64,000 nt of DNA from Sneathiella aquimaris (lineage in GTDB: Bacteria; Pseudomonadota; Alphaproteobacteria; Sneathiellales; Sneathiellaceae), in contig NZ_CP112881.1 of the NCBI RefSeq assembly GCF_026409565.1, forward strand, positions 620,001-684,000, in the 5' to 3' direction. Positions 41,444 through 64,000 of the stretch are shown here, piece by piece. The translations under genes and the position numbers were made by a program. Under the pieces are notes generated by a model, which made no database searches, had not been told where the DNA came from, and worked only from the letters and a program-made list of their open reading frames with translations. The stretch's first letter is position 1. Each line of letters begins with the position of its first letter.

Positions 41444-41848
41444 TTCTCCGTTAAAAGGTTCGTCAGCGTGTCGCGCAGGTTTGCAGCTACGATATACCTG
41501 TTCAAGGTAAATTTAAAGAAATGTGATCGACATTACTGTTCAGTGTCGTGTCTCTTGCGGCGGCGCTGATTCTTCAGGGACACATGGAGAAATTGATCTA
41601 GGTTGAGGAAACTACGCTTATGGTTAATTAATTTACATTAATTTTGAAATTTATACCCAATCTGGGGGGCAGTGTGGGGAATACCACTAAAATCTTATTT
41701 ACAGTTTGACAGCAATCGGGCTCTCAATAGTATTGTATTAATGTTTTGTTAATAAATGCGCATTCTCCGGTGTTGAGGATGTTGCATGGGGTTTGTTTAA
41801 TACAGGCTTACCAGAGGGTACTGGGTGCTTACAGCGAAAGAGGGCCAA
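41444..41848. other. Divergent intergenic region before VPLPA-CTERM gene
   Basis: 405 bp without a credible gene. It becomes AT-rich near 41620-41760 and holds TTGACA at 41706-41711 with a weak -10 (TAGTAT, 41728-41733, 16-bp spacer), which would give a leader of about 110 nt before the ATG at 41849 (AGAGGG upstream). Confidence 0.45.
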
Positions 41849-43576: not shown

Positions 43577-44218
43577 TCAAACTTGGTTCTTCCGCCGTCC
43601 GAGCCAGCCCAGGCCGAGCAGGGCTCCACCAAAGAGCAGTACGGCAGGGGGGAGAGGGACAACCGAAATGCGAATTGCCATGTCATCAAAGTCATGATCG
43701 CCTGCACCGTCACCAAATAAGGCAATGATCGACCGTCCATCATTTGAAAGGGCTGAAAAGGCAATCGCAAGTGGGTTGTCAATGTTGCCGTTTTCAGCTT
43801 CCTGTCCGCCGCCTCCGGAGGTGGTGAATTTGAAAGGTAACAAACCGTTTGCATTCGGGGTCAGGGAAACCGTGACACTGTTTGTGCCGGGCAGGTCAGA
43901 ATCTGTGCTGAACAGAATGCCAAATCCAGCCAGTTCGATCGCCTTGTTGATATATCCGGCTTCTTTTCCCAAGTAATCAAACCGGACAGTTGCAGGGCCC
44001 GACAAAGCCAGTCCTTCATTTGTGTTTGTGCTGTCAAACACAGTGACCTGATCTACATTGGCTTGCAAACCTGTCAGTTGCAAATGTGATGCGCCGCTGA
44101 AATTCGACGGCAAAGTAACGCCTGACTGTCCGCCAACTAACGAAAGCGTAGCGGCGTGAGCTGCCATTGGCGTCAAAAGCGCAAATGTGATTGCAATAAT
44201 TTTAATCAACTGTTTCAT
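43577..44218 (-). CDS. VPLPA-CTERM sorted surface protein 2
   Basis: 213-residue exported protein: signal peptide MKQLIKIIAITFALLTPMAA with cleavage near AHA-ATL; beta-rich body (LPSNFSGASHLQLTGLQANV, GYINKAIELAGFGILFSTD) ending in FGDGAGDHDFDDMAIRIS, a segment resembling calcium- or carbohydrate-binding jelly rolls; C-terminal VPLPPAVLLFGGALLGLGWL then GRRK, an exosortase tag. ATG at 44216-44218 with GGAG nine bases upstream. Body architecture differs from VPLPA-CTERM 1, so they share the sorting route, not the fold. Confidence 0.85.
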   Translation of the reverse strand: MKQLIKIIAITFALLTPMAAHAATLSLVGGQSGVTLPSNFSGASHLQLTGLQANVDQVTVFDSTNTNEGLALSGPATVRFDYLGKEAGYINKAIELAGFGILFSTDSDLPGTNSVTVSLTPNANGLLPFKFTTSGGGGQEAENGNIDNPLAIAFSALSNDGRSIIALFGDGAGDHDFDDMAIRISVVPLPPAVLLFGGALLGLGWLGRRKNQV

Positions 44219-44221
44219 CAA

Positions 44222-50900: not shown

Positions 50901-51047
50901 CGGACGACTGGAAACGGTCAGGCGCGTTTCGATGAAGAGACGCAAATGCTTTCCATTGACCTTGATGGTGACCTGGAAGCGGACATGGAAATGGAGCTGG
51001 TTGGTGTATCTCTTCAGGATCTCGATAATTCGGACTTTTTAATCTAG
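44913..51047 (+). CDS. Giant modular adhesin/enzyme: LamG, VCBS repeats, beta-helix, RTX
   Basis: 2044 residues, no N-terminal signal. Order: LamG-like jelly roll 1 (about 5-185, FTISATFELDTLSGGTQ, TGWHDVQVVVD); seven VCBS repeats of exactly 100 residues (202-901); LamG-like 2 (910-1087); VCBS 8-9, divergent (1107-1310); Gly-rich linker; right-handed parallel beta-helix (1323-1646) with GGDHSDNIQF (His1511) and YHGITV (His1573); RTX nonapeptides (1693-1770, GGDDTLYGGNGDDQLIGGSG); LamG-like 3 (1813-1993); and a serralysin-type end GDLEADMEMELVGV...DFLI. RTX plus this C-terminus predicts type I secretion; no transporter gene is nearby. The beta-helix resembles the separate gene at 56419-57747. 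A role in binding or modifying exopolysaccharide is inferred from context. Confidence 0.9.
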   Translation: MSSTITDTENGLLENAASDFGSSKNFGQDPSLNGMDSFTISATFELDTLSGGTQALVWNTQQYGLIIHNDTLYVYLRGTDGRMDVFPVADAFDSTGWHDVQVVVDDQSGTLDIWVDGENSYSGSSENIQLGGTQYSGVTAGVTPWGHQLQGQIADVSITDEALEIDGSQSIYERMYAMDEGDNASTLEAAPTDPDGPAENTAAEISGTDTGSVTEDASLTTSGKLNVSDADAGESSFQAGSQNGAHGTLSIDAAGNWTYVGTDSAAIQALDAGDVLTETFTVMTADGTTQDITVTINGTEDAAEISGTDTGSVTEDASLTTSGKLNVSDADAGESSFQAGSQNGAHGTLSIDAAGNWTYVGTDSAAIQALDAGDVLTETFTVMTADGTTQDITVTINGTEDAAEISGTDTGSVTEDASLTTSGKLNVSDADAGESSFQAGSQNGAHGTLSIDAAGNWTYVGTDSAAIQALDAGDVLTETFTVMTADGTTQDITVTINGTEDAAEISGTDTGSVTEDASLTTSGKLNVSDADAGESSFQAGSQNGAHGTLSIDAAGNWTYVGTDSAAIQALDAGDVLTETFTVMTADGTTQDITVTINGTEDAAEISGTDTGSVTEDASLTTSGKLNVSDADAGESSFQAGSQNGAHGTLSIDAAGNWTYVGTDSAAIQALDAGDVLTETFTVMTADGTTQDITVTINGTEDAAEISGTDTGSVTEDASLTTSGKLNVSDADAGESSFQAGSQNGAHGTLSIDAAGNWTYVGTDSAAIQALDAGDVLTETFTVMTADGTTQDITVTINGTEDAAEISGTDTGSVTEDASLTTSGKLNVSDADAGESSFQAGSQNGAHGTLSIDAAGNWTYVGTDSAAIQALDAGDVLTETFTVMTADGTEHTVQVNINGADEAPVVEVPQQTEEELLSDAAVEFGGPQNFGRGAELNGMDSFTISATFELDTLSGGTQSLVWNTQQYGLILSGDNLYVYLRDTGGRMDVAVVADAFDQTGWHDVQVVLDKAAGSLNVYVDGAVAYTGSSDAIALTNAPSSDVFAGQTEWGHPLQGQLADVSIVGEAMDVDGSQTTYERMYAMDEGDLASQLAAVAPTPDPEPEPTPENTAAEISGDTAARVAEDGTLATSGKLNVTDIDAGESNFQAGTLAGAYGALVISADGSWSYAANDSAQIQALDVGDTLTDTFTVQSADGTEQTVTITIDGAEDAAVISGTDTGSVTEDASMSTSGKLNVSDADQGESFFQADELTGDYGSFSIDTNGNWNYTATDSAQLQALNTGDNVTENFTVLSADGTQHTVDVTVNGADEVVVTPPTGGGGGLEIEVGSIAELVAAMENAVGGETIKLRPGDYEPFTLDGFVFPENVTLTSADPNNPAHLENLILKNSTNITFENLTFHSEDAPYGSWGEFLFTVTHSSNIDIKNNHFGNDSPTAHADNFIGLTVKNSDGIDVTDNEFTNLGNGAGFSYTQNLNVSDNYVHNVRSDGFDFTSVQHVEVIGNTIKDLYPTGGDHSDNIQFTGNRNMPPNTDIVIRDNVIVQGDGNPGQGIFMKTDPESPFQNVVIENNIVYQSAYHGITVYNADGLTINQNTVVSPPDTQLPVWIKVFDVQNTVVENNITNTMAVVGDDSSVEFINNILTETSNATGLLPYSEVFANELVRLTSDVDGFLVNSEFSAGAEVAVFLANDEPLAGNTTNNDIRGTEEADIIYGFSGEDTLNGEGGDDTLYGGNGDDQLIGGSGDDVLVGGNGADILVGGEGQDLFLFSDRKQSAPGEQNRDSIQDFNATGEDKISLEGLISGEFDFIGSAEFSAPASTESVDAQLTNIAGDFGAGVVNLGYGDQFFGMTDLTVSATFELNSLSGGKQAVVFNHKQYAIKVVNDDMQIMMRKVDGTQDTINIGNVLGETGWHDTQLVLDSGAGTLELWLDGAVVYSGSSAGYQIGEDASLDLTAGGLLWGEELDGQVADVTILDKVIDFSAENTVLDRMYMIDEYDEFIAIDRTTGNGQARFDEETQMLSIDLDGDLEADMEMELVGVSLQDLDNSDFLI
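45516..47615 (+). repeat. Seven tandem 300-bp VCBS-encoding repeats
   Basis: Units begin at 45516, 45816, 46116, 46416, 46716, 47016 and 47316, each exactly 300 bp; only the last about 40 bp of unit 7 diverge. Comparing units by eye, I find differences at four positions only (ACA/ACG twice, GCG/GCA twice), all third-base and silent. Units 1 and 2, 3 and 4, and 6 and 7 are identical to each other. Confidence 0.97.
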
Positions 51048-51231: not shown

Positions 51232-51837
51232 ATGGAAAGCTTAGCACGGTCACAGAGATCATTCTTTTCGAGGGTACTGACGAAAATTGATCGGCTTTTC
51301 TCATCTCTTTTTCGAGGAAGGCGGTTCGCTCAGTTTGGTGCCGGCAGTTATGTCGGCAAGCCGTTTCTTTTATCTGGCCTTGATGCGGTAAAGGTCGGAC
51401 GTAAAGTCACCATTTGGAAAATGGCTCGAATTGAAGCCTTAAAAACATCTCCATCCTCTATTGTCCTGAACATAGGTGACGAGACGGTTATCCATCCATT
51501 TGTACATATTGCTGCGGCACACTCTGTCGAGATTGGAACAGAGTGTTTGTTCGCTTCTGGTGTTTATATCAGTGACCATGATCATAACTGGCAGGACGTA
51601 AACACTCCGACCTTAAAAAAACCAGGATTAACAGTAGGCGCCGTGAAAATTGGAAATGGGGTGTGGTTGGGTGAGAGAGCGATGATTCTAAAAGGGGTCA
51701 CGATAGGGGAGGGATCTGTAATCGCCGCAGGTTCCGTTGTGTCAAAGGACATTCCAGCCAGATGTGTCGCCGGGGGCGTACCTGCTAAAGTTCTGAAAAT
51801 TTGGGATGAAAAATTAGAGGAATGGGTGAAGGCGTGA
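51232..51837 (+). CDS. Hexapeptide-repeat (LbetaH) acyltransferase, WcaF/WbbJ-like
   Basis: Probable O- or N-acetyltransferase decorating the polysaccharide. The 201 residues form a left-handed beta-helix: VGRKVTIWKMARIEAL, GDETVIHPFVHIAAA, GTECLFASGVYISDHDHNWQ (the DHDH segment holds the family's active-site His) and GNGVWLGERAMILKGVTIG, GEGSVIAAGSVVSKDIPAR. First gene of the plus-strand exopolysaccharide block; its end overlaps the next glycosyltransferase by 16 bp. Confidence 0.92.
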   Translation: MESLARSQRSFFSRVLTKIDRLFSSLFRGRRFAQFGAGSYVGKPFLLSGLDAVKVGRKVTIWKMARIEALKTSPSSIVLNIGDETVIHPFVHIAAAHSVEIGTECLFASGVYISDHDHNWQDVNTPTLKKPGLTVGAVKIGNGVWLGERAMILKGVTIGEGSVIAAGSVVSKDIPARCVAGGVPAKVLKIWDEKLEEWVKA

Positions 51838-53165
51838 AGAAGAAGCTTCTAATAATAGCCTACTTTTTTCCTCCCATCGGTGGCGCAGGTGCGCAGAGAC
51901 CGACGAAGTTTGCTAAATATCTTGCAAAAGATGGATGGGATGTCACTGTCCTCACCAAAGAACAAATAGATGAGGGGAACCGCTGGGAACCTAAAGACTT
52001 ATCTTTGTTTGATGATGTGGATGATAAGACAGGCCAAATATCTGTAATCCGGATCCCTGAAAAAGGGAAAACCACTGGTCAGTTTGCAATTGATCCTTTT
52101 GAAAATTGGGCTCTTTCCGCTGGGAAATATACCCTGGACCTGCTCGATAAAGATCATTTTGATGCTGTTTTTATTACGATGTCGCCTTTCTCCTTAACCA
52201 TTGCCGCAGACGAAATTAGAAAAAGATCATCAGTTCCAGTGATACTGGATTTAAGGGATCCCTGGATACTGGATGGATGGACACCTCAGAAAACGTATCT
52301 GCATTGGCAGCTCAATTACCGTAAAATGAGCCACGCGTTAGTGCACGCGAGCGGTGTGGTTGCAAACACTGAAGAGGCGGGTAAGCTTTTTTTAGAAAAC
52401 TTTGAACAATTGGATGAGAAACAGTTGTGTGTCATCGAAAACGGTTTTGACGAAGAGGATTTTACCAGACCACTAGAGACCCCCGAAGACCGCGCGCCAA
52501 AAAAGACTTTTACTTTAATGTTTTCGGGTTCTTTATGCACCCAGCCCAAAATGAATTGGTCCAGTCCGAAAGACATATTGAAACATTTGCTGCGATATTC
52601 GCCTGAGAAAATTGACCCGTCCGGTCGTACCCTTATTCATTTGCTCAAGGCAGTCGAGATATTGGAAAGCAGAAATGAACCGCTTGCCAAAATTCTAAAA
52701 ATTGAATGTTTAGGATTGGCAACAGAGATGGACCGGGAATCGGTTGAGGCTTCTCGGGTTGGCAATATCGTGACATTTTGTGGTTATATTCCGCATGATC
52801 AAGCGGTTAAGAAAATTAGATCTGCGGACGGATTATTTTTACCGCTGCATGGTGCTGCAAGTCTATCCAGAAGTAGAATTGTACCGGGGAAAACATACGA
52901 ATATATGGCCACAGGTTTACCCATATTAGGGTGCTTGCCAGAGGGCAATGCTCGAGAGCTTATCGGGAAGTATGAAGGGGGATTTGTGGCCAACCCCTTA
53001 AATCCTGAGGAAATTGCGGATCAGTTGCTAAAAATGTGGCAGTTTTCTGGAAGCGAAAAACCTGCTCCAGAAGCAAATAGCTGGATATACACTTATGAGA
53101 GGAAAAACCTTACAAAAAAACTTGCAGTTTTTCTTGAGAAGATTATTCAGGCAAACTCGAAATGA
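51822..53165 (+). CDS. GT4-type glycosyltransferase
   Basis: 447-residue GT-B fold glycosyltransferase. N-terminal acceptor domain begins KKLLIIAYFFPPIGGAGAQR, a typical GT4 glycine-rich loop; middle VILDLRDPWILDGW; C-terminal donor domain with TLMFSGSL, VTFCGYIPHDQAVKKIRSAD and PGKTYEYMATGLPILGCLPE (conserved Glu region). Likely adds a sugar on the cytoplasmic face during repeat-unit assembly. ATG at 51822 overlaps the previous gene by 16 bp; a GTG at 51834 is possible. Sugar specificity unknown. Confidence 0.9.
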   Translation: MGEGVKKKLLIIAYFFPPIGGAGAQRPTKFAKYLAKDGWDVTVLTKEQIDEGNRWEPKDLSLFDDVDDKTGQISVIRIPEKGKTTGQFAIDPFENWALSAGKYTLDLLDKDHFDAVFITMSPFSLTIAADEIRKRSSVPVILDLRDPWILDGWTPQKTYLHWQLNYRKMSHALVHASGVVANTEEAGKLFLENFEQLDEKQLCVIENGFDEEDFTRPLETPEDRAPKKTFTLMFSGSLCTQPKMNWSSPKDILKHLLRYSPEKIDPSGRTLIHLLKAVEILESRNEPLAKILKIECLGLATEMDRESVEASRVGNIVTFCGYIPHDQAVKKIRSADGLFLPLHGAASLSRSRIVPGKTYEYMATGLPILGCLPEGNARELIGKYEGGFVANPLNPEEIADQLLKMWQFSGSEKPAPEANSWIYTYERKNLTKKLAVFLEKIIQANSK

Positions 53166-53224
53166 GTAGTTTGGCGATTATTATGGCACGGGTTTCGTTC
53201 TGGTTTTTTAAGGGCGGTGTTTAG

Positions 53225-54547
53225 ATGGCGACACTTGATTGGGCAAATCAAACGACGGCACACCCTGTCGGTCTTGGTCTAATGGCGGTGTGTGCCGGAG
53301 CTACGCTCGTTGTCCGGCGAGAGTATGCTATTTTTCCTCTGCTGATTATGATTATGGCAATCCCCAGTGCGCAACGGATTGTAGTCGCAACAATTGATTT
53401 CAGTTTTATTCGAATTCTCGTTATGGCAGCCCTCTTTAGGGCGTTTATGAGAAAGGAACAACTGGGTCTAACGCGCCAAACACCTGATATTGCAATAATA
53501 TTTTGGATGGTTTGGGGGATTTTTTCTTATGGACTCCTCTTCGGGACAGTTTCTGCCTTTATTACCCGGACAGGTTTTATGTTGGACGCTGTCGGGTCAT
53601 ATTATCTCGGGCGAATATATGTGAGAAATGTCTTGGATTTAAAGCGCGTAATGGTGTTTTTGGGCATCGCGTCTATTCCTATGTTTATGTTTTTCTCAAT
53701 TGAGCGAGCAACGGGACAAAACCTGTTTTCCATTTTTGGCGGTGTACCAAAATATACTTTGATCAGGGACGGTCGTTTGCGTTGTCAGGGGCCTTTCTCT
53801 CATCCGATTATGGCAGGCGTTTTTTGGGCGGTATTGTTGCCGTGGCTGGGGTCTTTCTGGATAACAAAACAAATACCAAAAATTCTATTGATTACGTTCG
53901 CGGTATGCTTTCTGGGCATTGTATTAAACTCAGCGTCTTCAACACCTGTCATGTCGGTGGTTTTTGTTGTAATTGGAATGGGTTTCTATTTGTTTCGGGG
54001 ATATTTAACGCAGATTAGATGGCTGGCCTTTTTCACATTAATCGCCTTGCATATGGTGATGCAAAAACCCGTTTGGCATCTCATTTCTAGGATTGATATC
54101 ACTGGAGGTTCGACAGGTTGGCATCGCTATTATTTGATCGACCGGTCGATCGCTCATTTCCATGAATGGTGGCTGTTCGGTGTCCAGTCAACAGCACATT
54201 GGGGGCGCGGCCTGCAGGATGTCACAAACCAGTTTATCTTGGAAGGGGTAAGGAGCGGTGCTTTTGGCCTAATTCTTTTTTGCGTGTTCGTATACACGCT
54301 CTTCAAGCTTTATGGACGTAGTATCAAAGCTGCAAGACAAAAAAGCGACAGGTGGATCATGTGGGGGGCAGGGGTCATCCTTTTTGTTCATTGTATGAAT
54401 TTTCTCGCGGTCTCTTATTTTGGTCAAATGCAAAACGCTTTTTATCTGCTTTTAGGGGCATCAGTTAGTATTGGCGCGACGATTATTCAGCGGACAAAAA
54501 AAATGAAAAGGCAGGAAGCAATCGTTGCGCAGGAGCGACTTGCTTGA
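53225..54547 (+). CDS. Wzy/O-antigen-ligase-like polymerase
   Basis: 440-residue polytopic membrane protein with about ten helices. MAIPSAQRIVVATIDFSFIR near the N-terminus, then RCQGPFSHPIMAGVFWAVLL, a region like the conserved Wzy_C/WaaL periplasmic loop, and a large loop with WHRYYLIDRSIAHFHEWWLF and GRGLQDVTNQFILEGVRSGA, where O-antigen polymerases keep H-x-N-type residues. Expected to polymerise undecaprenyl-linked repeats in the periplasm. Sits between GT4 and FemAB-like genes in the same transcription block. Confidence 0.83.
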   Translation: MATLDWANQTTAHPVGLGLMAVCAGATLVVRREYAIFPLLIMIMAIPSAQRIVVATIDFSFIRILVMAALFRAFMRKEQLGLTRQTPDIAIIFWMVWGIFSYGLLFGTVSAFITRTGFMLDAVGSYYLGRIYVRNVLDLKRVMVFLGIASIPMFMFFSIERATGQNLFSIFGGVPKYTLIRDGRLRCQGPFSHPIMAGVFWAVLLPWLGSFWITKQIPKILLITFAVCFLGIVLNSASSTPVMSVVFVVIGMGFYLFRGYLTQIRWLAFFTLIALHMVMQKPVWHLISRIDITGGSTGWHRYYLIDRSIAHFHEWWLFGVQSTAHWGRGLQDVTNQFILEGVRSGAFGLILFCVFVYTLFKLYGRSIKAARQKSDRWIMWGAGVILFVHCMNFLAVSYFGQMQNAFYLLLGASVSIGATIIQRTKKMKRQEAIVAQERLA

Positions 54548-54607
54548 GGCTTTAGAGGCAGGTCAATAGAAAGAACACTTATAATTGTTTAGTGAATTGA
54601 AAGATAA

Positions 54608-55651
54608 ATGACGGATCTCAGGATTGACTATCTCACCGAAAAAGAATGGAATTTATTCACTAAACTTTTTCTAGATCATAACTATCGTCAATTTTGGGCG
54701 TTCGGAAATGAAAGCGCAAAAAGATTAGGTGCCATAAGTGAATATGTCGGTATTTACTTAAAGGATGAACTTATCGGAATGGCCAATGTCAGGATTAAAA
54801 AGATACCGTTGTATCCAACTGGCATCGCTTATATCAATGGGGGGCCGATACATCTCAAACAACAAAATGCCGAAGAAAACCTTGAGAATTTTAGGTTTTG
54901 CCTGAAAGCGCTTACAGCAGAATATGTTGCGCAACGTAATCTGGTTTTAAGGGTGAAATGTTCGATTTATGATGAAGAAGGGAATACGGCGCGGGACAGG
55001 GTTTTTCAGAACGATAACTTCAGACGAATTCAACCAGAAGAATGTTACAGAACCTTTTTGGTCGACGTGTCGAAAACCGAAGACGAAATAAGAGCATCTT
55101 TGCACGGAAAATGGCGCAACCAACTTAATCGTGCAGATAAAAATGATTTAACAGTTTTATCTGGAACTGGAAGCGATTTGTTCGAGACATTTGAAAAACT
55201 ATTCGAACAGTTGAAAGAAAAAAAGGGATTTAGTGTTGCGCTTGATGTGGATTTTTATGAAAAAACTCAAACCAAGCTTCCAGAACATGAAAAGTTTTTG
55301 GTTCAAGTCGCACTGAAAAACAATGAAGTCCTATCAGCCCATGTGGGAAGCTATGTCGGGAATACTGCGGTTTATTTATTAGGTGCGTCTAACCCGAAAG
55401 GCAATGAGCTAAAAGCGTCTTACCTTCTTCAATGGTACGCTATTCGAAATGCCAAAAAGTTGGGTTGCGATTGGTATGACCTAGGCGGAGTAGATCCAGC
55501 AGGCAATAAAGGTGTTTATCATTTTAAGAAGGGGTTTAAGGGCACGGATGTGACAGCTGCTGGCCCATATCAAGCGGGAAGTGTAATGAATGTATGCATA
55601 GTCAGTATGGCAGAAAGAGCGTATCGCTTTCTCTTAAAATTAAGATCTTAA
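54608..55651 (+). CDS. FemAB/GNAT-fold aminoacyl- or acyltransferase-like protein 1
   Basis: 347 residues with the duplicated GNAT architecture of FemA/FemX: IAYINGGPIHL in the first half, CSIYDEEGNTARDRVFQNDN, HGKWRNQLNRADKNDL, and the diagnostic C-terminal YLLGASNPKGNELKASYLLQ, WYDLGGVDPAGNKGVYHFKK. FemAB proteins in Gram-negative polysaccharide loci, including exosortase-linked ones, are thought to attach amino acids or acyl groups to sugars. No Ser/Gly peptidoglycan-bridge role is expected here. Followed by the deacetylase after 17 bp. Confidence 0.85.
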   Translation: MTDLRIDYLTEKEWNLFTKLFLDHNYRQFWAFGNESAKRLGAISEYVGIYLKDELIGMANVRIKKIPLYPTGIAYINGGPIHLKQQNAEENLENFRFCLKALTAEYVAQRNLVLRVKCSIYDEEGNTARDRVFQNDNFRRIQPEECYRTFLVDVSKTEDEIRASLHGKWRNQLNRADKNDLTVLSGTGSDLFETFEKLFEQLKEKKGFSVALDVDFYEKTQTKLPEHEKFLVQVALKNNEVLSAHVGSYVGNTAVYLLGASNPKGNELKASYLLQWYAIRNAKKLGCDWYDLGGVDPAGNKGVYHFKKGFKGTDVTAAGPYQAGSVMNVCIVSMAERAYRFLLKLRS

Positions 55652-55668
55652 GTTTGGTGATATTATAA

Positions 55669-56418
55669 ATGATAAATTTTCTTAATAGGGCTTCTCGGAA
55701 GATCAACCGATATCTGGCGCGTATTTCACCTGTGAAAACATCGACGCAGATTTTCAACGCTCCAATAGTGAGTTTTACGTTTGATGATTGCGCTAAAAGC
55801 GCCATCACCCGGGGCGCTAAAATTCTTGAAAGTAAAGGGATTTGCGGTACTTATTATGTTTGTGGAGGCCTGACCGACAAACTTGAAAACAACACAATCT
55901 GTCACAGTTTAGAAGATCTAATGGGCCTGAAGGCGAAAGGCCACGAGATCGCGTCTCATCTGTTTAATCATGTGCGCTGCGAAGAGCTAACCGCAGATGA
56001 AATCAGGGAAGAGTTCTCTAAAAGCAAAGAGTTTTTATCACAGTTCGGTTTGGAGCTTAATCGGACTAATTTTTCTTATCCCTTTGGATCGATAAATATG
56101 CGGGCCAAAAAAGAAGCCGCTCGTGAGTTTGCTACCGCGCGGGGTATCGCCAACGGTATAAATGTCTCCAAAATTGACCTAGCCTGTTTGAAAGCCAACG
56201 CGTTGTATGCGGATGACGTTTCAAGGGGCGTCATTACAGAGTTGATTGATCAGACAATTCGTGATTCGGGCTGGCTCATATTCTATACTCACGATGTTGA
56301 TGAAAACCCGACAAAATATGGCATTACGCCTGAACTCCTTAAATTTGCTGCAGAATACGCAAAAAATAAAGGGTGCAGTATTCGGCCAATTTCCGATGTT
56401 GTAGAGCAATACTTCTAG
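55669..56418 (+). CDS. Polysaccharide deacetylase (CE4/NodB-like)
   Basis: Removes N-acetyl groups from the polysaccharide or its precursor. NodB motifs: VSFTFDDCAKSAITRGAKIL (catalytic and metal Asp), HEIASHLFNHVRC (metal His-x3-His), FSYPFGSINMRAKKEA, and a late GWLIFYTHDVDENP (motif 5 His). 249 residues, no clear signal peptide. Last gene of the plus-strand block: its stop codon (56416-56418) abuts the stop of the convergent beta-helix gene with no base between. Confidence 0.9.
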   Translation: MINFLNRASRKINRYLARISPVKTSTQIFNAPIVSFTFDDCAKSAITRGAKILESKGICGTYYVCGGLTDKLENNTICHSLEDLMGLKAKGHEIASHLFNHVRCEELTADEIREEFSKSKEFLSQFGLELNRTNFSYPFGSINMRAKKEAAREFATARGIANGINVSKIDLACLKANALYADDVSRGVITELIDQTIRDSGWLIFYTHDVDENPTKYGITPELLKFAAEYAKNKGCSIRPISDVVEQYF

Positions 56419-57747
56419 TTATTGGGACGGGGAGTATTGGAAAGCGCCAACGTCACTCCTTTCTGATTTGGGCCTGGGACGGCCTTTAATATCAGTTTGT
56501 GTTTTGAACAGCATATTTGCCTTTTTTCGGGCTGGACTGTTTTCTTTTAGGTTGAAGTTAAAATTCTCAGGATCTTGAAAAATTTCGTTTTTATTTGAAA
56601 TTTGTAGGTTGCTATGTCTGAAGACCCCGGGGATCTTTTTTCCAAATGAAGCCGCAATGTTATTAGCGATAACAGATCCGGAAGACGCCATCCCTTTTTT
56701 ATGATTAAATATTTTGATACTTGCGGGCCCCGGTTTTCGGTCGTTAGGGTCAATAACAGTATTATGAATAATTCGGACGTTTTTTGCGCCCATCACTGTT
56801 ATGCCGTGCCAGTGGTCAACAACGACCAAATTGTTTTCGATGATCCAGTTTTCATACATTCCATCAAAAAGGCCGATCCCTTGCATTGCGCAAGTAAATT
56901 TGGCGTTTGGATTGTCAGATCCGATAAACGTGTTTCCTCTTAATACCACGTTAGAGATTGTTCCTCGTCCCGTTCGTCCATTGGGTCCACTGGACCAGGA
57001 TTGAAAGCCATCATCATGATTTTGATCTACTTTGATGCAGTTCTTGACGGTATTGCCTTCGAACAACAAATCGTTCGCTAAACCTCTCATTCCATCTGCT
57101 GAAAACTGATCGATAACGTTGTTCTTCACAACTGAGTTCTCTCCCATCACGGTAATACCGTTTCCAACATTGGTAAGTAGGTTGTTTGAGATGCTCACGT
57201 TTCTTCCGCTGGAACGAATTCCGTCGGAGGCTTTTTCATGCCAGTCTTTTTGCGACCATCGTGACGCGTCAGGAATAGACTGAATATTGAGATTCGTCAG
57301 CGAAATAGAGCTGCTCTTTTTGTCAATAAGGACAAGTTTGGTTTTCTTGTAGTCTTTCGCAAGAGATCCGTTGATTTTTAGGTTATGGAGAACCCAGTTT
57401 TGGCTCGAATTAATTAGGATGCTGCTGAATTCAGCCTTCTCCCCTTTGGCCGATGTTACTGTTACCGGCTTCTTATTTTTACGGTTCTTGATCGTTAGTG
57501 CTCCGTAATTTCCTCCCGACAATATGAGTGTGTCTCCCGACTCCAGAATGTTTTTAGACATTGCTTTTTTAAGCGTGGACCAGGGATTTTGCTGGCTTCC
57601 GTTCTCACCAGCGTAAGGAGCGCGATTTATATCAACATAAATATTTTTAGCGGTAACATTTGTCGCCAACAAAATGATTGGCATTGCAATCAAAATAAAG
57701 ATCCTCAGTGACAAAATATTTTTCTGCACTAGTTTAATATTAGGCAT
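56419..57747 (-). CDS. Exported right-handed parallel beta-helix protein
   Basis: 442 residues with a signal peptide (about 1-33, LSLRIFILIAMPIILLATNV then TA-K). The rest is a parallel beta-helix of the pectate-lyase/epimerase superfamily with N-x-N-type turns (VSISNNLLTNVGNGITVMGE, VVKNNVIDQFSADGMRG) and a His/Asp cluster DQNHDDGFQSW (His244) and DHWHGITV (His314). It aligns by eye with the beta-helix of the 2044-residue protein. In the EPS operon such a protein is expected to be a lyase or epimerase acting in the periplasm during export; no catalytic activity is proven. Last gene of the minus-strand block. Confidence 0.85.
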   Translation of the reverse strand: MPNIKLVQKNILSLRIFILIAMPIILLATNVTAKNIYVDINRAPYAGENGSQQNPWSTLKKAMSKNILESGDTLILSGGNYGALTIKNRKNKKPVTVTSAKGEKAEFSSILINSSQNWVLHNLKINGSLAKDYKKTKLVLIDKKSSSISLTNLNIQSIPDASRWSQKDWHEKASDGIRSSGRNVSISNNLLTNVGNGITVMGENSVVKNNVIDQFSADGMRGLANDLLFEGNTVKNCIKVDQNHDDGFQSWSSGPNGRTGRGTISNVVLRGNTFIGSDNPNAKFTCAMQGIGLFDGMYENWIIENNLVVVDHWHGITVMGAKNVRIIHNTVIDPNDRKPGPASIKIFNHKKGMASSGSVIANNIAASFGKKIPGVFRHSNLQISNKNEIFQDPENFNFNLKENSPARKKANMLFKTQTDIKGRPRPKSERSDVGAFQYSPSQ

Positions 57748-57782
57748 TTGACCTCTTTCGGGATTTACCTGACGATCACAGC

Positions 57783-58847
57783 TTATCTGCGTAGAATGCG
57801 TTTGATGATTTCTTTCGCTCTAGTTTTTAGATGTCCCGGGAAATGTAGTGCGCGGTTTGTCACGGTATAATGTTCGGAGACGCGCTTAACTTCTGCCGGT
57901 GAGAATTCTCCCTTATATTTGTAAATATAATAGTGGGAGTTGTCAGAGGTTACTGTTGAATCATATCCTTCCAAGTCAAACCTGTGGCATCCGGATTTTT
58001 TTGCCCATTTCATACCTTCGAGCCATAGTAATGGAGAGATTCTAAGGTTTTTAAGCTCTTTAAGCTTTTCTGTATCACCTGCAAAATGACGTCCATGGGC
58101 TGTGACGTTACTTCTATATATTTGCAATCCTGCGATCACAGTTTTTTCATGCAAGGCACATAAAACGATCCCATTTTCGCCTTTTTTGTAAAAGTTTTCA
58201 AACGAGAAAGCCATGCTCTGTGAGTCTAACTCGGAAAGGTGACGATTTTTTCTAAGATTGTTTAATAGTGCAAGAAATTCGAGATATGTCGACTTGTCAG
58301 TAATTGGTTGTACGGTGATTTCCTGCCTTTCAGCCCTTCGGGTTTCTCTACGTGCACTTTTTGAAAAGGCAGAGAAAATTTCATCTTCACTTCTAGTTAA
58401 ATCAACAATGCCGGTTTTGCGGAATGGTTGGGGTTCGGCGGAAGAAAAGCCCGCATCCTTTAAAACTCGATGAGCGATTAGTGCGTCTTCTTCTAACCAA
58501 TAAGGGGAGACATTCAATCGGCCAACGTTTTTAAAAATAGTCTGTTTTTTAAGGTTATTGATAAACGAATAAAAATCATCCTCATTATTAATGATCGGCC
58601 CACTTAGTATATTGGCTTGTGAGAATTTATTTTTAAAGATTCGGCTGGGAACAAGGCTGGCTAACGCAACCGCGCTAATCGTGTTTTCTTTTCTACCGAT
58701 TAAGAAGTAGCAGGCGTTTCCTTCCGCTTTCTCAATATTTGCAAAAACAGGGAGTTGTCTAGGATGCTGATTTTTAGAATTCTCCAAAAAACCTTCCCAT
58801 TCAATTTGTAACGGCCCGTCGAGAGACTTGAAGCATTCAATTTGCAT
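57783..58847 (-). CDS. FemAB/GNAT-fold transferase-like protein 2
   Basis: 354 residues, GNAT-type double domain: NVGRLNVSPYWLEEDALIAH, PFRKTGIVDLTRSEDEIFSA, SKSARRETRRAERQEITVQP (the basic helix common in FemAB-like proteins of polysaccharide loci) and the diagnostic HRFDLEGYDSTVTSDNSHYY. Likely acyl/aminoacyl transfer to the polysaccharide or lipid-linked precursor, substrate unknown. It overlaps the preceding DegT gene by 11 bp and is 35 bp before the beta-helix gene, so the minus-strand block is a tightly packed operon. Confidence 0.83.
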   Translation of the reverse strand: MQIECFKSLDGPLQIEWEGFLENSKNQHPRQLPVFANIEKAEGNACYFLIGRKENTISAVALASLVPSRIFKNKFSQANILSGPIINNEDDFYSFINNLKKQTIFKNVGRLNVSPYWLEEDALIAHRVLKDAGFSSAEPQPFRKTGIVDLTRSEDEIFSAFSKSARRETRRAERQEITVQPITDKSTYLEFLALLNNLRKNRHLSELDSQSMAFSFENFYKKGENGIVLCALHEKTVIAGLQIYRSNVTAHGRHFAGDTEKLKELKNLRISPLLWLEGMKWAKKSGCHRFDLEGYDSTVTSDNSHYYIYKYKGEFSPAEVKRVSEHYTVTNRALHFPGHLKTRAKEIIKRILRR

Positions 58848-60054
58848 GTTTTTTACCTGTTGGAATAAAGGCGGGTGCTGCTTTAAGGTCTCTTAGAATG
58901 AATTCAAGCGTTTTAACCATGTAGTCAATTTGTACACTATCAAGGTATTGATGAATAGGAAGAGAGACCAAGTGGTTCTTTAAAAAGCACGCTGATTTTT
59001 GGTCCTGCCAATCTAACTGTGAATGGAAACCTGACCACCAGGGTGTCGCTGCGATACCCGCGACGTTTAATGCGTCACAAACAGAACCTTGCTTCTCTAC
59101 AAGTATAGGGAACGAAAGAGGACAGGTTTCTGATGTGATTTCAGAAAACAAAGGAGACATTCCGCTTAAGTTTTTCGTCTTTTTTGCTAAATATTCGAAG
59201 TTCTGCTTTCGCTTTTCCCTTGTTATATCAGGGTCATAGCGTTCCAATAGTGCTTTAGTGATGCTACTAATTTTTGAGTTGTTAAAAGCCGTTTTGTAGT
59301 AATAGTGCTGAGGCATGTCTGGAAAATCAGTTTGATCTTTTGCTGATGAAATATTCGGCTCGTTAGCGTCAGGTTTTAATTTAGCTATGAGTTTAGAGTA
59401 GAGGTTCTTGCCTAAGAGAGTTTGCAAACCAGCTCTGACTAAAGCTTTTTCTACAAATAATTTGGGAAGAGAATTGCTGAAATGAGTTGAGATCGTGTTT
59501 GTATTATCGATAAGTGCGCCTCCCCCGATTGAAGGAAAGAACTTGTAGAAACAAAATATCGCATAAGCGCCAAAACTTCCGGCAGGGTGACCATTGAGTT
59601 CAGAAAAGAGAGATAATGCGCAATCTTCTATTACAACAGCGCCTATCTGGTCAGCGTATTCACAGATTTCCGCTATGTTTGGTTGGACGACACCAAAATA
59701 GTGAATGATGTAAATCGCTTTTGTCTTTTCACTTGCCTTAGCCTTTATGTCTTCTAGAGAGATAGTTGTGTCTATATTGATACTGTATAACACGATCTTT
59801 GCACCAGCCTTTATGGCAGGATCAACCTCCGATCCGCAATTAAACGAAGGCATCAAAATCTCATCGCCTTCTTGAAAATCTAGTTGTTTCATGACTTCGA
59901 AAATACCGGTCCGGGCATTTGCACAGTAATAGACATTTGACCTATTGAATCTGCTTTCTAGGGTTTCCACCACATTCCCTATCGATTTTTTTCTAAGTAA
60001 ATTAGAAAAGCTAATCGTTGGATCTTCACAGTTGAGCACTCTCTCAGTTTTCAT
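58837..60054 (-). CDS. DegT/DnrJ/EryC1/StrS-family aminotransferase
   Basis: PLP-dependent sugar aminotransferase fold, 405 residues. N-terminal CANARTGIFEVMKQL and EILMPSFNCGSEVDPAIKAG, a VVIEDCALSL segment with the PLP-contacting Asp, and the catalytic Lys in IFCFYKFFPSIGGGALID. Family members make amino-deoxy sugars from keto-sugars; that would supply an amino sugar whose modification fits the neighbouring acyltransferases. One bp separates it from the upstream GNAT gene. No sugar-nucleotide dehydratase is seen in the window. Confidence 0.88.
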   Translation of the reverse strand: MKTERVLNCEDPTISFSNLLRKKSIGNVVETLESRFNRSNVYYCANARTGIFEVMKQLDFQEGDEILMPSFNCGSEVDPAIKAGAKIVLYSINIDTTISLEDIKAKASEKTKAIYIIHYFGVVQPNIAEICEYADQIGAVVIEDCALSLFSELNGHPAGSFGAYAIFCFYKFFPSIGGGALIDNTNTISTHFSNSLPKLFVEKALVRAGLQTLLGKNLYSKLIAKLKPDANEPNISSAKDQTDFPDMPQHYYYKTAFNNSKISSITKALLERYDPDITREKRKQNFEYLAKKTKNLSGMSPLFSEITSETCPLSFPILVEKQGSVCDALNVAGIAATPWWSGFHSQLDWQDQKSACFLKNHLVSLPIHQYLDSVQIDYMVKTLEFILRDLKAAPAFIPTGKKHAN

Positions 60055-60055
60055 T

Positions 60056-60802
60056 TTATAGGATTTCCTGAGCTGGCACTGGAGCTTTCAATAAATTCGT
60101 TTGCCGTTTACCAGAGCGCTTATACTCTGCCACATATCCAAGATAGCTCCACCCCATTCGTGCAAGCGAGGATTGTGTGGTTGTGTTGTAATCTCTACAG
60201 TTTACGAAAAAGAGCGTAGTTCCAAATTGAGCCCGGTGGATCATCAATTGCCATAAAAACTTGTCGAAAAGCTTTTTACCGCGATATTCAGGAAAAACTG
60301 TTGTTTGCCACACAAGTTCAGCATTGTCAGGAAGCGGTACAAAGAAATCACGCGCTTGTTGATTGTTTCTGAGCCAGCCCAATCCTGCTGTTTTTCCGTC
60401 AATTTCTCCAACAATTAGTTGATACTCGAGATCCGTGAGCCAGCCAAAGTCACCCCAACCAAGAGACTCTTGCTCATCTCTCAATCTCGCTAAAACCTCA
60501 GCGTCCAAGTCTTCCCAATTTAGGATTACGCGAAATTTGAGGCCTGGAAACGCAGATTTGTCTTTGTAATCCATGTTGGAAATGTCGAGGGAATAGATGT
60601 AATGATGCTTGCTGAACAAGGTGTCGCGAACTGATCGGATGAACTGGCGCAAAAACGGAAGCCAACCTTTTTTCCAGGCAGACTTGAGTAAAATAACTTT
60701 TTGTTTTTGCGTGGCCAACTCTTTTGTTCTCCGTTGAAAGCGAATGATAACGAGTAAATTTTGGTACAGCTTATAATATACTGACATCCTATCACGTTTC
60801 AT
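60056..60802 (-). CDS. GNAT-family acetyltransferase
   Basis: 248 residues with a single GNAT domain: KFRVILNWEDLDAEVLARLR, KTAGLGWLRNNQQARDFFVP, VFPEYRGKKLFDKFLWQLMI (motif A, acetyl-CoA pyrophosphate loop of the R-G-K/G type) and FVNCRDYNTTTQSSLARMGW. First gene of the minus-strand block. No good Shine-Dalgarno fits the ATG at 60802; the ATG at 60787 (MSVYYKLYQ) is the alternative. Target unknown; likely the amino sugar or polysaccharide. Confidence 0.82.
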   Translation of the reverse strand: MKRDRMSVYYKLYQNLLVIIRFQRRTKELATQKQKVILLKSAWKKGWLPFLRQFIRSVRDTLFSKHHYIYSLDISNMDYKDKSAFPGLKFRVILNWEDLDAEVLARLRDEQESLGWGDFGWLTDLEYQLIVGEIDGKTAGLGWLRNNQQARDFFVPLPDNAELVWQTTVFPEYRGKKLFDKFLWQLMIHRAQFGTTLFFVNCRDYNTTTQSSLARMGWSYLGYVAEYKRSGKRQTNLLKAPVPAQEIL

Positions 60803-60989
60803 TTAATAGAATGAAAGCATCAACAATTTATTACGAATTGTTTCATTTATTTTCCGAACGTTAAGGTGAAATTAAAGTCATTAACGCATTTACTTTGATA
60901 AGGTTTTTATAGAAAACGAACAAAAGAGACGTTTAGAAAATCGTATTTGGCTTTGTTTTTTTAATGGCAAATTTTTGAAAGTAATAAAA

Positions 60990-61931
60990 ATGAATCCGGA
61001 AGTGTCCGTCATTATTGTTAGCTGGAATGTAAAAGAAATGGTTTTGGATTGCGTCAGAAGTGTTTTGGCGCAGACAAAGGCGACGTGTGAGGTGATTGTC
61101 ATTGACAACGCCAGCGGTGACGGAACTGTCGAAGCGATATCTGCTGAATTTTCGGACGTCTGTATTATAGCCAATGATGATAATATAGGTTTTGCGGCGG
61201 CAAATAATCAGGGGATCGAGATATCCAAGGGTGACTATATTCTATTGTTAAACCCGGACACGCTCATTGTCGGTGATGCCATAGATCAGATGCTTGAATG
61301 GATGAAGAAAGATAGAACGGTAGGATGTGGTGGATGCCAGGTTTATGAAGCCGAGGACGTAATTCAAAGAACCTGCTTTAGCGACCCTGGCCCTTGGAAC
61401 ATTTTTCTTGTTCAAACTGGACTTCACAGGCTGACGATCTTGAGAAAATTCCTGGGTAAGCCAGAATATTCATGGTGGGATCGGCGGTCAGAAATGGATG
61501 TCGACGTTGTCTCCGGGATGTTTATGATGGTGCCAAAAACAGTGATTGATGATATCGGGTCAATGGATGACGCTTTCTTTGTTTACTCTGAAGAGGCCGA
61601 TTGGTGCCGCCGGATTCGAAAAGGCGGATATCGGTGCGTTTTTACTCCTATTGCAAAAATCATTCATCGGGACGGCGGGAATAAAAGCACCTATCAAATT
61701 CGCCCCAAAATGTATATCCAATTGCAAAAAAGCCAACTTATTTATGTGCGTAAGCACTACGGCTTGTCAGGGTATATATTAGTAAAATTTCTGTATCTGG
61801 CTGCAATGTCAACAAGGGTATTGAGTTTCGGCCTCTTATCATTGTTATCGGCGAACCACCGGTTTAGAGGGAACGCTTCTCTTGCGCTTAAAGCAATACA
61901 ATTCCATTTGTTTTCCAAGGAACCGGTGTAA
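60990..61931 (+). CDS. GT2-family glycosyltransferase (WbbL-like)
   Basis: Inverting glycosyltransferase of 313 residues, rhamnosyltransferase-like. GT-A signatures: SVIIVSWNVKEMVLDCVRSV, VIVIDNASGDGTVEAI, GFAAANNQGIEISKGDYILL and the metal motif LNPDTLIVG; acceptor side SGMFMMVPKTVIDDIGSMDD, SEEADWCRRIRKGGYRCVF. ATG at 60990 chosen (MNPEVSVII), avoiding an upstream TTG. Begins the third transcription block, divergent from the GNAT gene across 187 bp that show nothing else clear. Confidence 0.92.
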   Translation: MNPEVSVIIVSWNVKEMVLDCVRSVLAQTKATCEVIVIDNASGDGTVEAISAEFSDVCIIANDDNIGFAAANNQGIEISKGDYILLLNPDTLIVGDAIDQMLEWMKKDRTVGCGGCQVYEAEDVIQRTCFSDPGPWNIFLVQTGLHRLTILRKFLGKPEYSWWDRRSEMDVDVVSGMFMMVPKTVIDDIGSMDDAFFVYSEEADWCRRIRKGGYRCVFTPIAKIIHRDGGNKSTYQIRPKMYIQLQKSQLIYVRKHYGLSGYILVKFLYLAAMSTRVLSFGLLSLLSANHRFRGNASLALKAIQFHLFSKEPV

Positions 61932-61935
61932 GTTG

Positions 61936-63162
61936 ATGGATAAAGATATCAATTTGCTGGGAATAAAGTCGAACACTGGTTTGTCGGTGAAAGTACTGAG
62001 ATCCTGTTCGGATTTGCAGGCATATAGTTCGCAATGGGATGGATTTGTCGAGAAAAACGGCAGTGATATATATTTTACCATCGACTGGCTTCAAACATGG
62101 CTGGAGTTCTACGGAGCAAACTCTAAAATTTACTGTTTTCTAGTATATTGTGATGACCAAGTGGTCGCGGCAGTGCCGTTGGGTGTTGATAAACTTGGTT
62201 TTGGTCCATTTTCAATTCGTCTCGCTCGATTACTTGGGGCATATGGAACGATTGCGGTCTTTAATCTTGCAATTTCACCTGGTTTTGAAAAACAGGTTTT
62301 AGAGAGTGTGACCGAGTATTTGACAGAAGAAAATTGTTGCGATTGCATATCTATGTCTCCGTTATCAGGGCAGTCAGGATTTAGTCAATTTTTAGCCTCA
62401 GAACCAGCTCAATCCGGTCACGCATGGAAGATGGAAATATCAAATATAGGTCTTCACACTCTGTTTGAGCTTCCAGAGAGTTATGATCAATATCTTGGAT
62501 CTTTGGGAAAAAGTAAGGGGAAGAAAATTCGATATGAAGAGCGCCTACTTTCCAAAAACTTTGATGTTGTAAACCGGGCCATCGACGGACCAGAGGCCAA
62601 CGAATATTTTGACACATTTGTCGAGTTGCATACCAAATTATGGAATGAGCAAGGAAAACTTGGTCATTTTGGAGACTGGCCGCAAAGTTTGGAATTTAAT
62701 CGAGCGTTAATTCGAAAATTCAGTCAAAAAGGAAAGGTCAAATTTTATGAGCTATCAACTGAAGGGCGCCCGCTCTCGATAGGCTATAGCTATGAGTTTG
62801 GCAAAACGTCCCATAATCGGTTAACCGCGAGAGATACAGATCCAAAATTAAAAAAATTTGGTCTAGGTCGGTTAGGTTACGTCAAGATTCTACAATTGCT
62901 TATTGAAGAAGGAAAACGAATAGAGGAAACAGGGCCCGGGCATTACGACTACAAAGTTTCAATTGGCGGTAAAGAGTATCAAATGATGCGTTTGCTGATT
63001 GCTCGGAATTCGATCGTTGCAAAAGCAAAAACGAAAATTTACCAAAAATTGTATGATGGTCTCAATTTTCTATATTATCGGGTTTGGTTTTTAAAAATCT
63101 CTCCCAAAATTTTTAAAAAAAATGCCCCTCTATGGTCCTTTTGGATTCGGGCTAAACTGTAA
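61936..63162 (+). CDS. GNAT-fold protein, CelD/BcsL-like
   Basis: 408 residues of the acetyltransferase group common in cellulose- and EPS-associated loci. SQWDGFVEKNGSDIYFTIDW, GPFSIRLARLLGAYGTIA, GKSKGKKIRYEERLLSKNFD (basic helix), and late ETGPGHYDYKVSIGGKEYQM, which matches the typical D-F-x-G-x-E-x-Y-K end region. Start at the ATG at 61936, 4 bp after the GT2 stop; the longer frame runs into GT2. Substrate unknown. It overlaps the flippase ATG by one base. Confidence 0.84.
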   Translation: MDKDINLLGIKSNTGLSVKVLRSCSDLQAYSSQWDGFVEKNGSDIYFTIDWLQTWLEFYGANSKIYCFLVYCDDQVVAAVPLGVDKLGFGPFSIRLARLLGAYGTIAVFNLAISPGFEKQVLESVTEYLTEENCCDCISMSPLSGQSGFSQFLASEPAQSGHAWKMEISNIGLHTLFELPESYDQYLGSLGKSKGKKIRYEERLLSKNFDVVNRAIDGPEANEYFDTFVELHTKLWNEQGKLGHFGDWPQSLEFNRALIRKFSQKGKVKFYELSTEGRPLSIGYSYEFGKTSHNRLTARDTDPKLKKFGLGRLGYVKILQLLIEEGKRIEETGPGHYDYKVSIGGKEYQMMRLLIARNSIVAKAKTKIYQKLYDGLNFLYYRVWFLKISPKIFKKNAPLWSFWIRAKL

Positions 63163-64000
63163 TGTCGATTGAGTCAGGAAAAGCTCTTAGTTGGTCCTTT
63201 GTGATGAATATTTCATCTCTGGGGATCAATGCAGGCTTAATGTTTGTGCTTGCCGCTATCCTTGGTCCTGAGAATTTCGGTATTGTTGCTATTGCCAGCA
63301 TATTTTTGTTTTTCTTACAGATTTTGGGCGGGCAGTTTTTTATTACTGTTCTTATTCAAAGAGACGTTCTGGAAGAAGAGCATGTCGACACGGTATTCTG
63401 GTTGAGTTCTTGTTGGTGCGTGTTGATGGCTTGCCTGGCAGCTTTAATGGCTGATTTCTGGGCGGGTGTGAACCGCACTCCTGACGTTGCGCCTGTTATT
63501 ATGGCTCTTGCCCCATTGGTCCTGATCAAAGGTTTGGCAATCGTTCCTCGAGGATTATTGTTAAGACACTTAGATTTTAAGCACACTACAATCGCTATGG
63601 TTTTGGGCTCTCTTTGTGGTGGCATTGGGGGTATTTATCTTGGATTATCAGGATACGGCGTTTGGGCACTTGTCGTTCAGCAATGGATATTAGAGATCGT
63701 TTTGCTATGCCTTGTTTGGTTTTTCTCTCGCTTCAGACCACATTTCCGATTTTCCAGAAAACATCTGATTGACGTTCTTCCCTTCGCACGGGGCGCTTTT
63801 CTCAATGAACTCGGTGGATTTGCCCAATCTCGTTCAGAAGCCATCCTGCTCGGCATTCTGTTCGGACCGGTTTTGATTGCGCTCTATCGAATTACAGACC
63901 GAATGGTTCAGATCATCACGTCTATTCTATCAAGGTCTATTGCGTCGTTTTTATTGCCGTTCGCATCCCGGCATCAGAATGATGAGGTGAAATTAAAGCA
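63162..64000 (+). CDS. Wzx-type polysaccharide flippase, cut by window edge
   Basis: I read 279 codons from the ATG at 63162 (its A is the last base of the preceding TAA) to the right edge, open throughout. Membrane-spanning segments alternate from the start (ALSWSFVMNISSLGINAGLM, VLAAILGPENFGIVAIASIF) with the polysaccharide-transport family pattern GPENFGIVA and LPFARGAFLNELGGFAQSRS, EAILLGILFGPVLIALYRIT. This is the PST/WzxC type that moves lipid-linked repeat units across the inner membrane. Pairs with the Wzy-like protein at 53225-54547 for Wzx/Wzy assembly. C-terminal half lies outside the window. Confidence 0.9.
   Translation, partial: MSIESGKALSWSFVMNISSLGINAGLMFVLAAILGPENFGIVAIASIFLFFLQILGGQFFITVLIQRDVLEEEHVDTVFWLSSCWCVLMACLAALMADFWAGVNRTPDVAPVIMALAPLVLIKGLAIVPRGLLLRHLDFKHTTIAMVLGSLCGGIGGIYLGLSGYGVWALVVQQWILEIVLLCLVWFFSRFRPHFRFSRKHLIDVLPFARGAFLNELGGFAQSRSEAILLGILFGPVLIALYRITDRMVQIITSILSRSIASFLLPFASRHQNDEVKLK

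Follow-up and report, generated by a model that had tools for sequence, protein, structure and literature searches.

An exopolysaccharide locus of Sneathiella aquimaris with a deacetylase, three FemAB-type proteins and a DegT aminotransferase

What does a single exopolysaccharide (EPS) locus do with a polysaccharide deacetylase, three proteins of FemAB type, a probable fourth GNAT-fold protein and a DegT aminotransferase? The question is raised by the right end of a 64,000-nucleotide stretch of the genome of Sneathiella aquimaris (GCF_026409565.1; bases 620001-684000 of the single 3.94 Mb contig NZ_CP112881.1), referred to here as the window. Positions 51232-64000 of the window are the left part of one Wzx/Wzy EPS locus, the remainder of which lies at 684-705 kb of the genome; the right end of the part described is the window edge only, and the genome was read beyond it, from 683001 to 722000. 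The reading favoured here, considered fairly probable, is that of an EPS locus built on a chassis with the exosortase XrtD and carrying a horizontally acquired cassette for N-deacetylation and re-acylation. The genes discussed most are lettered by their start in the window: D (54608), E (55669), F (56419), G (57783), H (58837), I (60056), J (60975) and K (61936). All the genes named by the original prediction, which had been made from the letters of the window, are intact open reading frames where it had placed them. Sister loci were read in nine congeners, and the wider samples comprise 25 genomes of the genus, 385 of the class and 72,556 plasmids. The class sample holds few genomes per family, and coverage of Rhodobacterales genomes was thin.

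The modification genes and where else they occur

Gene D (54608..55651, plus strand) encodes a FemX-like protein that exceeds the cut-offs of PF02388 (99.8 bits, cut-off 24) and PF13480 (47.7 bits, cut-off 22) and is expected to consist of two GNAT domains. It matches FemX and FemA structures in the PDB and aligns with FemX of Weissella viridescens (PDB 1NE9, 4II9) over residues 48-308, with Lys305 of FemX opposite Lys307 of D. Homologues of D are found in a congener (G023), on a contig (L034) of a metagenome-assembled genome (MAG) of Paracoccaceae and on an Aliiroseovarius plasmid, and Lys307 is invariant across the four lineages of the D alignment. The second FemAB protein, G (57783..58847, minus strand), also passes both cut-offs (PF02388 33.3 bits, cut-off 24; PF13480 26.8 bits, cut-off 22). 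The third, K (61936..63162, plus strand), is FemAB-like, with a PF13480 match of 65.5 bits (cut-off 22) and none to the FemAB family PF02388; five aligned homologues of K share an invariant GxGxYDYK motif and a conserved C-terminal extension (YYRxW ... WxxW). In profile alignments Lys312 of G and Lys340 of K fall opposite Lys307 of D, the match of K being weak overall. The 248-residue product of gene I (60056..60802, minus strand) is probably a single-domain GNAT, to judge by sub-threshold GNAT matches (PF00583, 14.5 bits, cut-off 20.7), by GNATs making up three of its four weak PDB matches and by a V-x-P-E-[YF]-R-G stretch that resembles GNAT motif A. This stretch is retained in the only relative of I, a plasmid homologue about 35-37% identical. 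The four GNAT-fold proteins originally predicted have thus become three that stand above the Pfam cut-offs for FemAB or Acetyltransf_6 and one, encoded at 60056, that is only a probable member. AlphaFold models of K (from two sequences, pLDDT 38) and I (from a single sequence, pLDDT 34) were too poor for use.

Three further genes complete the modification set. Gene E (55669..56418, plus strand) encodes an HfsH-like polysaccharide deacetylase (PF01522, 61.4 bits, cut-off 23.1) in which the TFDD and SHxxxH motifs are both present; it scores 151 bits (E-value 4.3e-44) against the HfsH model NF050820, short of the equivalog cut-off of 400. H (58837..60054, minus strand) is a DegT/DnrJ/EryC1/StrS aminotransferase (PF01041, 99.5 bits, cut-off 19.8) with its pyridoxal phosphate lysine within FCFYKFFPxIGGG. 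Its gene is separated from I by a single base and overlapped by G by 11 bases, and its close relatives occur only in L034 and on the Aliiroseovarius plasmid. J (60975..61931, plus strand) is a family 2 glycosyltransferase (GT2; PF00535, 89.8 bits, well over the cut-off) that is 50-61% identical to the GT2 proteins of G023, L034 and the plasmid, as against 32-38% to the other GT2 proteins of the genus.

These genes recur as a group in lineages far from Sneathiella. Searches with H, I and D in the plasmid set converged on a single record, NZ_CP081154.1, from the distantly related marine bacterium Aliiroseovarius sp. M344 (Rhodobacterales). This plasmid carries relatives of I (35%), H (two copies, 38% and 32%), D (29%), K (27%), J (50%) and G (43%) and a deacetylase adjoining D. 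Homologues of all seven modification genes (J, K, D, deacetylase, H, I and G) therefore stand together on this plasmid, along with a beta-helix protein, Wzy, flippase, Wza, sugar transferase, ATPase, polysaccharide co-polymerase (PCP), kinase, PssD and PssE. The families of K, G and I were met on that plasmid alone among the 72,556, and it holds the sole homologue of G. J, K, D and the deacetylase gene follow one another on one strand; I precedes a DegT gene, an arrangement shared with the window, and farther upstream, behind an IS21 element, comes G. The MAG contig L034 holds five of the seven genes together: a J-K-D row, a DegT gene beside J in the opposite orientation and, past an insertion sequence, the deacetylase gene; a Wzy gene is also present. 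J adjoins K, and D a deacetylase gene, in this genome, in G023 and on the plasmid. Among the 385 class genomes, no second genome with H, I or K turned up, save for one partial DegT match. E is 27-32% identical, over about 120-140 residues, to the deacetylases of L034 and the plasmid, which are of a different subfamily and yet take the same role beside D: the activity stays and the gene is swapped. Because these rare families recur together in different orders, J-K, D-deacetylase and I-H-G are best explained as one functional, transferable gene set. The co-recurrence of a deacetylase and acyltransferases in unrelated genomes also lends support to the original proposal that deacetylation and re-acylation form one pathway.

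The plasmid locus resembles that of Sneathiella in its beta-helix protein, Wzy, deacetylase, D, K, J, DegT, I, G, flippase and export genes. It differs in having no exosortase in the stretch read, and in its two sulfotransferases, a polyketide synthase-nonribosomal peptide synthetase (PKS-NRPS) with a phosphopantetheinyl transferase, and insertion sequences between the sub-blocks. The PKS-NRPS (NZ_CP081154.1 60964-71253; L036 24964-35253) has class III aminotransferase, condensation and thioesterase domains and could be the source of an uncommon acyl or aminoacyl group. In one of the sulfotransferases (L036 11079-12077) the first 41 residues match the N-terminus of G (44%), as if a G gene had once stood between J and DegT on the plasmid and been replaced in frame. 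Two other candidates were set aside: a Pelagibacteraceae contig with a distant DegT, the only match besides L034 in the scan of genome contigs, is by its context an unrelated sugar locus, and the relatives of D on Azospirillum plasmids have partition and metabolic genes as neighbours, not EPS genes.

Within the genus, the export machinery is constant and the glycan genes vary. XrtD is present in 18 of the 25 genomes and the ATPase in 19; PrsT, the ATPase, the outer-membrane protein, Wza, XrtD, the kinase, the PCP and the initiating transferase are retained, at 39-81% identity, in all nine congeners read. Counterparts of D, E and K occur in only one of the nine, G023, which shares the FemAB-deacetylase-GT2-FemAB core as D-E and J-K-K-Wzx. 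Its K is a tandem duplicate (genome 4006416-4008952; L020 16417-18953) with GxGxYDYK in both copies. The G-H-I trio (57783-60802) has no counterpart in any of the nine and within the genus is known from this genome only; in G023 an AT3-SGNH acyltransferase (genome 4010436-4012457; L021 437-2458) fills its place, which suggests that the slot between F and J is an exchangeable modification slot. The G+C content of D, K, G and H is 0.40, compared with about 0.48-0.55 in the other window genes sampled, and fits acquisition. The glycan genes are a variable, acquired cassette on a fixed XrtD chassis. The GNAT richness that had been called unusual is indeed so: among the genomes of the genus searched, Acetyltransf_6 occurs at the XrtD locus only here and in G023.

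A proposed route from deacetylation to re-acylation

The genes, their families, the locus and the recurrence of the set in other lineages are observations; the order of steps that follows, the substrates and the donor, whether aminoacyl-tRNA or acyl-CoA, are proposed from sequence. A WcaJ-type transferase would start the repeat unit on undecaprenyl phosphate, and PssD/PssE, a family 4 glycosyltransferase (GT4) and GT2 would extend it. In the cytoplasm, E would free the amine on an N-acetylhexosamine of the lipid-linked unit, and D, encoded beside E, would re-acylate it. K, coupled to J, may act on the sugar added by J or on the one next to it; H and I, as a WecE/WecD-like pair, may produce or complete a second N-acylated amino sugar, and G would act on that product. 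Flipping, polymerisation and export of the polymer would next fall to Wzx, Wzy, the PCP and Wza, and outside the cell the beta-helix protein F and a type I-secreted RTX protein may bind or trim it. Because no signal peptide is visible in E, D, G, K or I, the modifications are likely to precede Wzx and to be made on nucleotide- or lipid-linked sugars at the cytoplasmic face. Since removal of an acetyl group followed by its replacement would be futile, at least one of the FemAB proteins should add a group other than acetyl. Aminoacyl-tRNA would be a serious candidate donor in view of the Lys305-equivalent lysines and of the tRNA-dependent GNAT-fold enzymes in natural-product pathways; in FemX, Lys305 is catalytic (PMC12945691).

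Several observations weigh against this scheme. The profile comparison of K with D is by itself not significant (probability 0.6%). The locus showed no NDP-sugar dehydratase that could provide a substrate for DegT, and the substrates and donors named above are guesses. A deacetylase gene next to a D-like FemAB was found only in G077 among the class loci fetched. Mutants of hfsK in Hirschia have no biofilm defect (PMC8449245), which means that enzymes of this kind are not always important.

The single case in G077 also led to the rejection of a general coupling of FemAB and deacetylase genes in the class. There (L069 8251-12372) GT2, DegT, FemAB and deacetylase follow in succession with overlapping frames, beside sugar genes of CDP-glucose type. 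Because its FemAB groups in the tree with the stand-alone branch and not with D, a comparable combination of genes seems to have come together twice, which counts in favour of the scheme.

If the cassette does re-acylate freed amines, the nature of the group can be read in different ways. It is quite possible, though short of probable, that all four transferases are plain N-acyltransferases using acetyl-CoA or another acyl-CoA in the manner of WecD or PglD, and that they tune the degree and type of acylation as proposed for HfsK. The likeness of I to a single-domain GNAT beside an aminotransferase agrees with this, as does the naming of HfsK as a putative N-acetyltransferase. The futility of simple re-acetylation speaks against it, as some of the donors should then not be acetyl-CoA, and D and G are closer to FemAB than to GNATs that use acetyl-CoA.

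The affinity of D and G with FemAB is in turn the starting point of a more tentative view, in which D, G and K are enzymes of FemABX type that transfer amino acids from aminoacyl-tRNA to amino sugars and yield an aminoacylated, partly cationic or zwitterionic polymer. Besides the PF02388 scores and the structural matches of D, it draws on the lysine equivalent to Lys305 of FemX, which does not vary in D and has counterparts in G and K, and on the GNAT-fold tRNA-dependent enzymes that work outside peptidoglycan synthesis (PMC12945691). It has to contend with K, which matches PF13480 only, a family whose members are not as a class known to use tRNA, and with HfsK, the nearest studied relative, which has no known donor; no gene for a tRNA or an aminoacyl-tRNA synthetase was seen among the open reading frames of the locus. 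The fuller proposal, that J-K, D-deacetylase and I-H-G form a transferable pathway in which three FemABs attach tRNA-borne amino acids to EPS amino sugars, is rather unlikely.

FemABX proteins of Gram-positive bacteria act on peptidoglycan precursors, and 59 of the 385 class genomes hold D-like FemABs that have no EPS genes nearby. The proteins of this locus might thus be imagined to act on peptidoglycan, or on proteins sorted by the exosortase, with their place among EPS genes being incidental. This is improbable, as the four D proteins of EPS loci group together in the tree (support 88/62) apart from the stand-alone FemABs (100/99) and a GT2 gene, a deacetylase gene and export genes of Wzx/Wzy type accompany the set in two orders. 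A chance accumulation of GNAT genes with no common pathway is very improbable and already disfavoured, for even though EPS cassettes vary widely in the genus and the F-J slot of G023 holds an AT3-SGNH acyltransferase in place of the trio, the same rare families recur independently together on one plasmid and in a MAG. An acquired deacetylation and re-acylation cassette on an XrtD chassis stays the preferred reading.

The remainder of the locus and its secreted proteins

The cassette is embedded in ordinary genes of glycan assembly. At its left end lie a WbbJ-like hexapeptide (LbetaH) O-acetyltransferase (51232..51837, plus strand; Hexapep 64.8 bits, cut-off 27; best NCBIfam WbbJ model 121 bits, under the cut-off of 243) and, overlapping it by 16 bases, the GT4 glycosyltransferase (51822..53165, plus strand; PF13692 and PF13439 above cut-off), whose homologue in the G021 XrtD locus is 51% identical. 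The Wzy-like polymerase (53225..54547, plus strand) has no Pfam or NCBIfam match and is a putative Wzy by its hydrophobic profile, its location and its similarity to other Wzy-like proteins; homologues occur in the loci of G023 (65%), G021 (56%) and G014 (50%). The 5' part of the Wzx flippase gene (63162..64000, plus strand) closes the window. The whole gene runs from 683162 to 684646 of the genome, its stop falling at window-equivalent 64646, and the whole protein scores 192.6 bits against PF13440, well over the cut-off.

To the right of the window (genome coordinates), PssD (684669) and PssE (685172) are followed by a glycosyltransferase (685677), PrsT (687139; TIGR02917, 317.3, cut-off 312.2) and an XrtA-type (Xrt-associated) ATPase (689673). 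Beyond these lie a TIGR03016 outer-membrane protein (690893, minus strand; 170.5, cut-off 90.85), a Wza-type export protein (692417, minus strand; TIGR03027, 231.8, cut-off 180), a type I secretion ATPase and an HlyD protein (693324 and 695454; PrtD/HlyD matches) and a PhzF-like isomerase (696790, minus strand). The exosortase XrtD (697638; TIGR04152, 448.4, cut-off 400), a tyrosine kinase (699282), the PCP (700101; TIGR03007, 240.5, slightly under the cut-off of 278.85), a small protein with a VPLPA-like tail (702081) and the WcaJ-type initiating transferase (703112; TIGR03023, 507, cut-off 410.75) are all on the minus strand. A flippase, a PCP, a Wza-type protein and an initiating sugar-phosphate transferase are thus all present in one locus, which is the mark of Wzx/Wzy-dependent EPS synthesis, and exosortase and PrsT together mark an exosortase EPS system. 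The rightward continuation that had been foreseen is therefore real, with Wza, the exosortase, PCP and kinase, and the initiating transferase at 692-704.6 kb, 8-21 kb beyond the end of the window, and the flanking genes belong to the same EPS locus and not to unrelated operons. An Rfam scan of genome bases 664001-684000 matched no RNA. A second gene for an initiating sugar transferase (Bac_transf) lies about 340 kb away, at 362418-362969; there is probably another polysaccharide locus elsewhere in the genome of Sneathiella aquimaris because of it.

Two secreted proteins accompany the locus. F (56419..57747, minus strand) is a right-handed beta-helix protein, a designation that comes from an alignment of five family members and a Pfam scan of them: F itself has no Pfam match, and PF13229 matches three of the five. 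The invariant stretches NHDDGFQSW and VDHWHGI look like parts of an active site; a PDB sequence search with the family matched no solved structure. Homologues of F stand beside the ATPase gene in three congeners (G006, G010 and G015). The RTX-type protein (44913..51047, plus strand) combines, by Pfam, cadherin-like/VCBS repeats, LamG and a beta-helix domain, the last matched by the F-family profile at residues 1335-1618 and related to F. Its homologues adjoin the locus in seven congeners, and most congeners have relatives of both proteins next to their loci. The RTX protein is a probable substrate of the type I secretion genes of the locus (genome 693324-696776). Its seven consecutive VCBS/cadherin-like repeats of ~100 residues each look nearly identical, which suggests a recent expansion of the repeat array.

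Just left of the locus, two small proteins (41825-42526 and 43577-44221) end in VPLPA-like C-terminal tails (VPLPAALPLYG..., VPLPPAVLLFGG...); a third such tail is in the small protein at genome 702081-702710, and all three were noticed by eye. The tails are sub-threshold in TIGR03370 (16.6 bits, cut-off 25.35) and PF07589 (15.2 bits, cut-off 20.7), and the two proteins on the left are likely XrtD substrates to judge by these tails.

Comparison with known systems

Of the original interpretation, the single EPS locus has stood and a single deacetylation and re-acylation pathway is supported; the claim of a chemistry not deducible from known loci is not. The combination of a deacetylase with FemAB/GNAT proteins has a precedent in the Caulobacter holdfast, with HfsH and the GNAT-type proteins HfsK, CC2278 and CC1244 (PMC5362036), and in the FemAB and deacetylase families of the XrtA system. 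HfsK and its two paralogues are FemX-like GNATs that alter the holdfast, and acylation of the amines exposed by HfsH has been suggested; HfsK-type genes cluster with EPS genes in several phyla (Sprecher et al., PMC5362036). The holdfast system and the Sneathiella locus have in common an HfsH-like deacetylase, several FemX-like GNAT paralogues, an initiating transferase of WcaJ/HfsE type, a proposed cytoplasmic modification of the EPS precursor and a C-terminal extension on one FemAB-like protein. In HfsK, a FemX-like double GNAT, this extension binds c-di-GMP; that of K may be a counterpart. The hfs locus itself contains neither hfsK nor its paralogues in Caulobacter and Hirschia (Chepkwony et al., PMC8449245), whereas all the modification genes of Sneathiella are inside the locus. 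Sneathiella also adds a DegT aminotransferase and a single-domain GNAT, its chassis is an XrtD exosortase locus, and both E and its initiating transferase fall under the equivalog cut-offs for HfsH and HfsE.

A search for a characterised locus of the same gene order found none, and in the open-access literature no description was found of a single locus that holds the complete set, DegT and GNAT included, or of the spread of this set to another order. A compact set that encodes a deacetylase, glycosyltransferases and three FemABs and recurs on a plasmid of another order offers a tractable system for the question of donor and acceptor that HfsK-type enzymes pose. If amino acids are attached, tRNA would feed exopolysaccharide synthesis. 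The FemX of Weissella viridescens, with which D aligns, has UDP-MurNAc-pentapeptide as its substrate.

The secreted proteins recall Rhizobium, which exports cadherin-like EPS-binding lectins via PrsDE (PMC5061743), and by this analogy the RTX protein and F may bind or trim the polymer. Type I secretion genes near EPS genes and a secreted calcium-binding protein with cadherin-like repeats, like the Rap lectins, are common to both; the Sneathiella RTX protein additionally has LamG and beta-helix domains, and polymer binding is putative here. The locus also resembles the XrtA/PEP-CTERM system (PMC1569441), with which it shares an exosortase, PrsT, TIGR03016, TIGR03027, PCP, kinase, deacetylase and FemAB-type proteins. 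It has XrtD (VPLPA-CTERM) and not XrtA, and three FemABs in place of one. D reaches 40.4 bits against the XrtA-associated FemAB model TIGR03019 (cut-off 260), which G and K do not match, and E 28.2 bits against the XrtA-associated deacetylase model TIGR03006 (cut-off 276), which places the FemAB and deacetylase of Sneathiella in other subfamilies.

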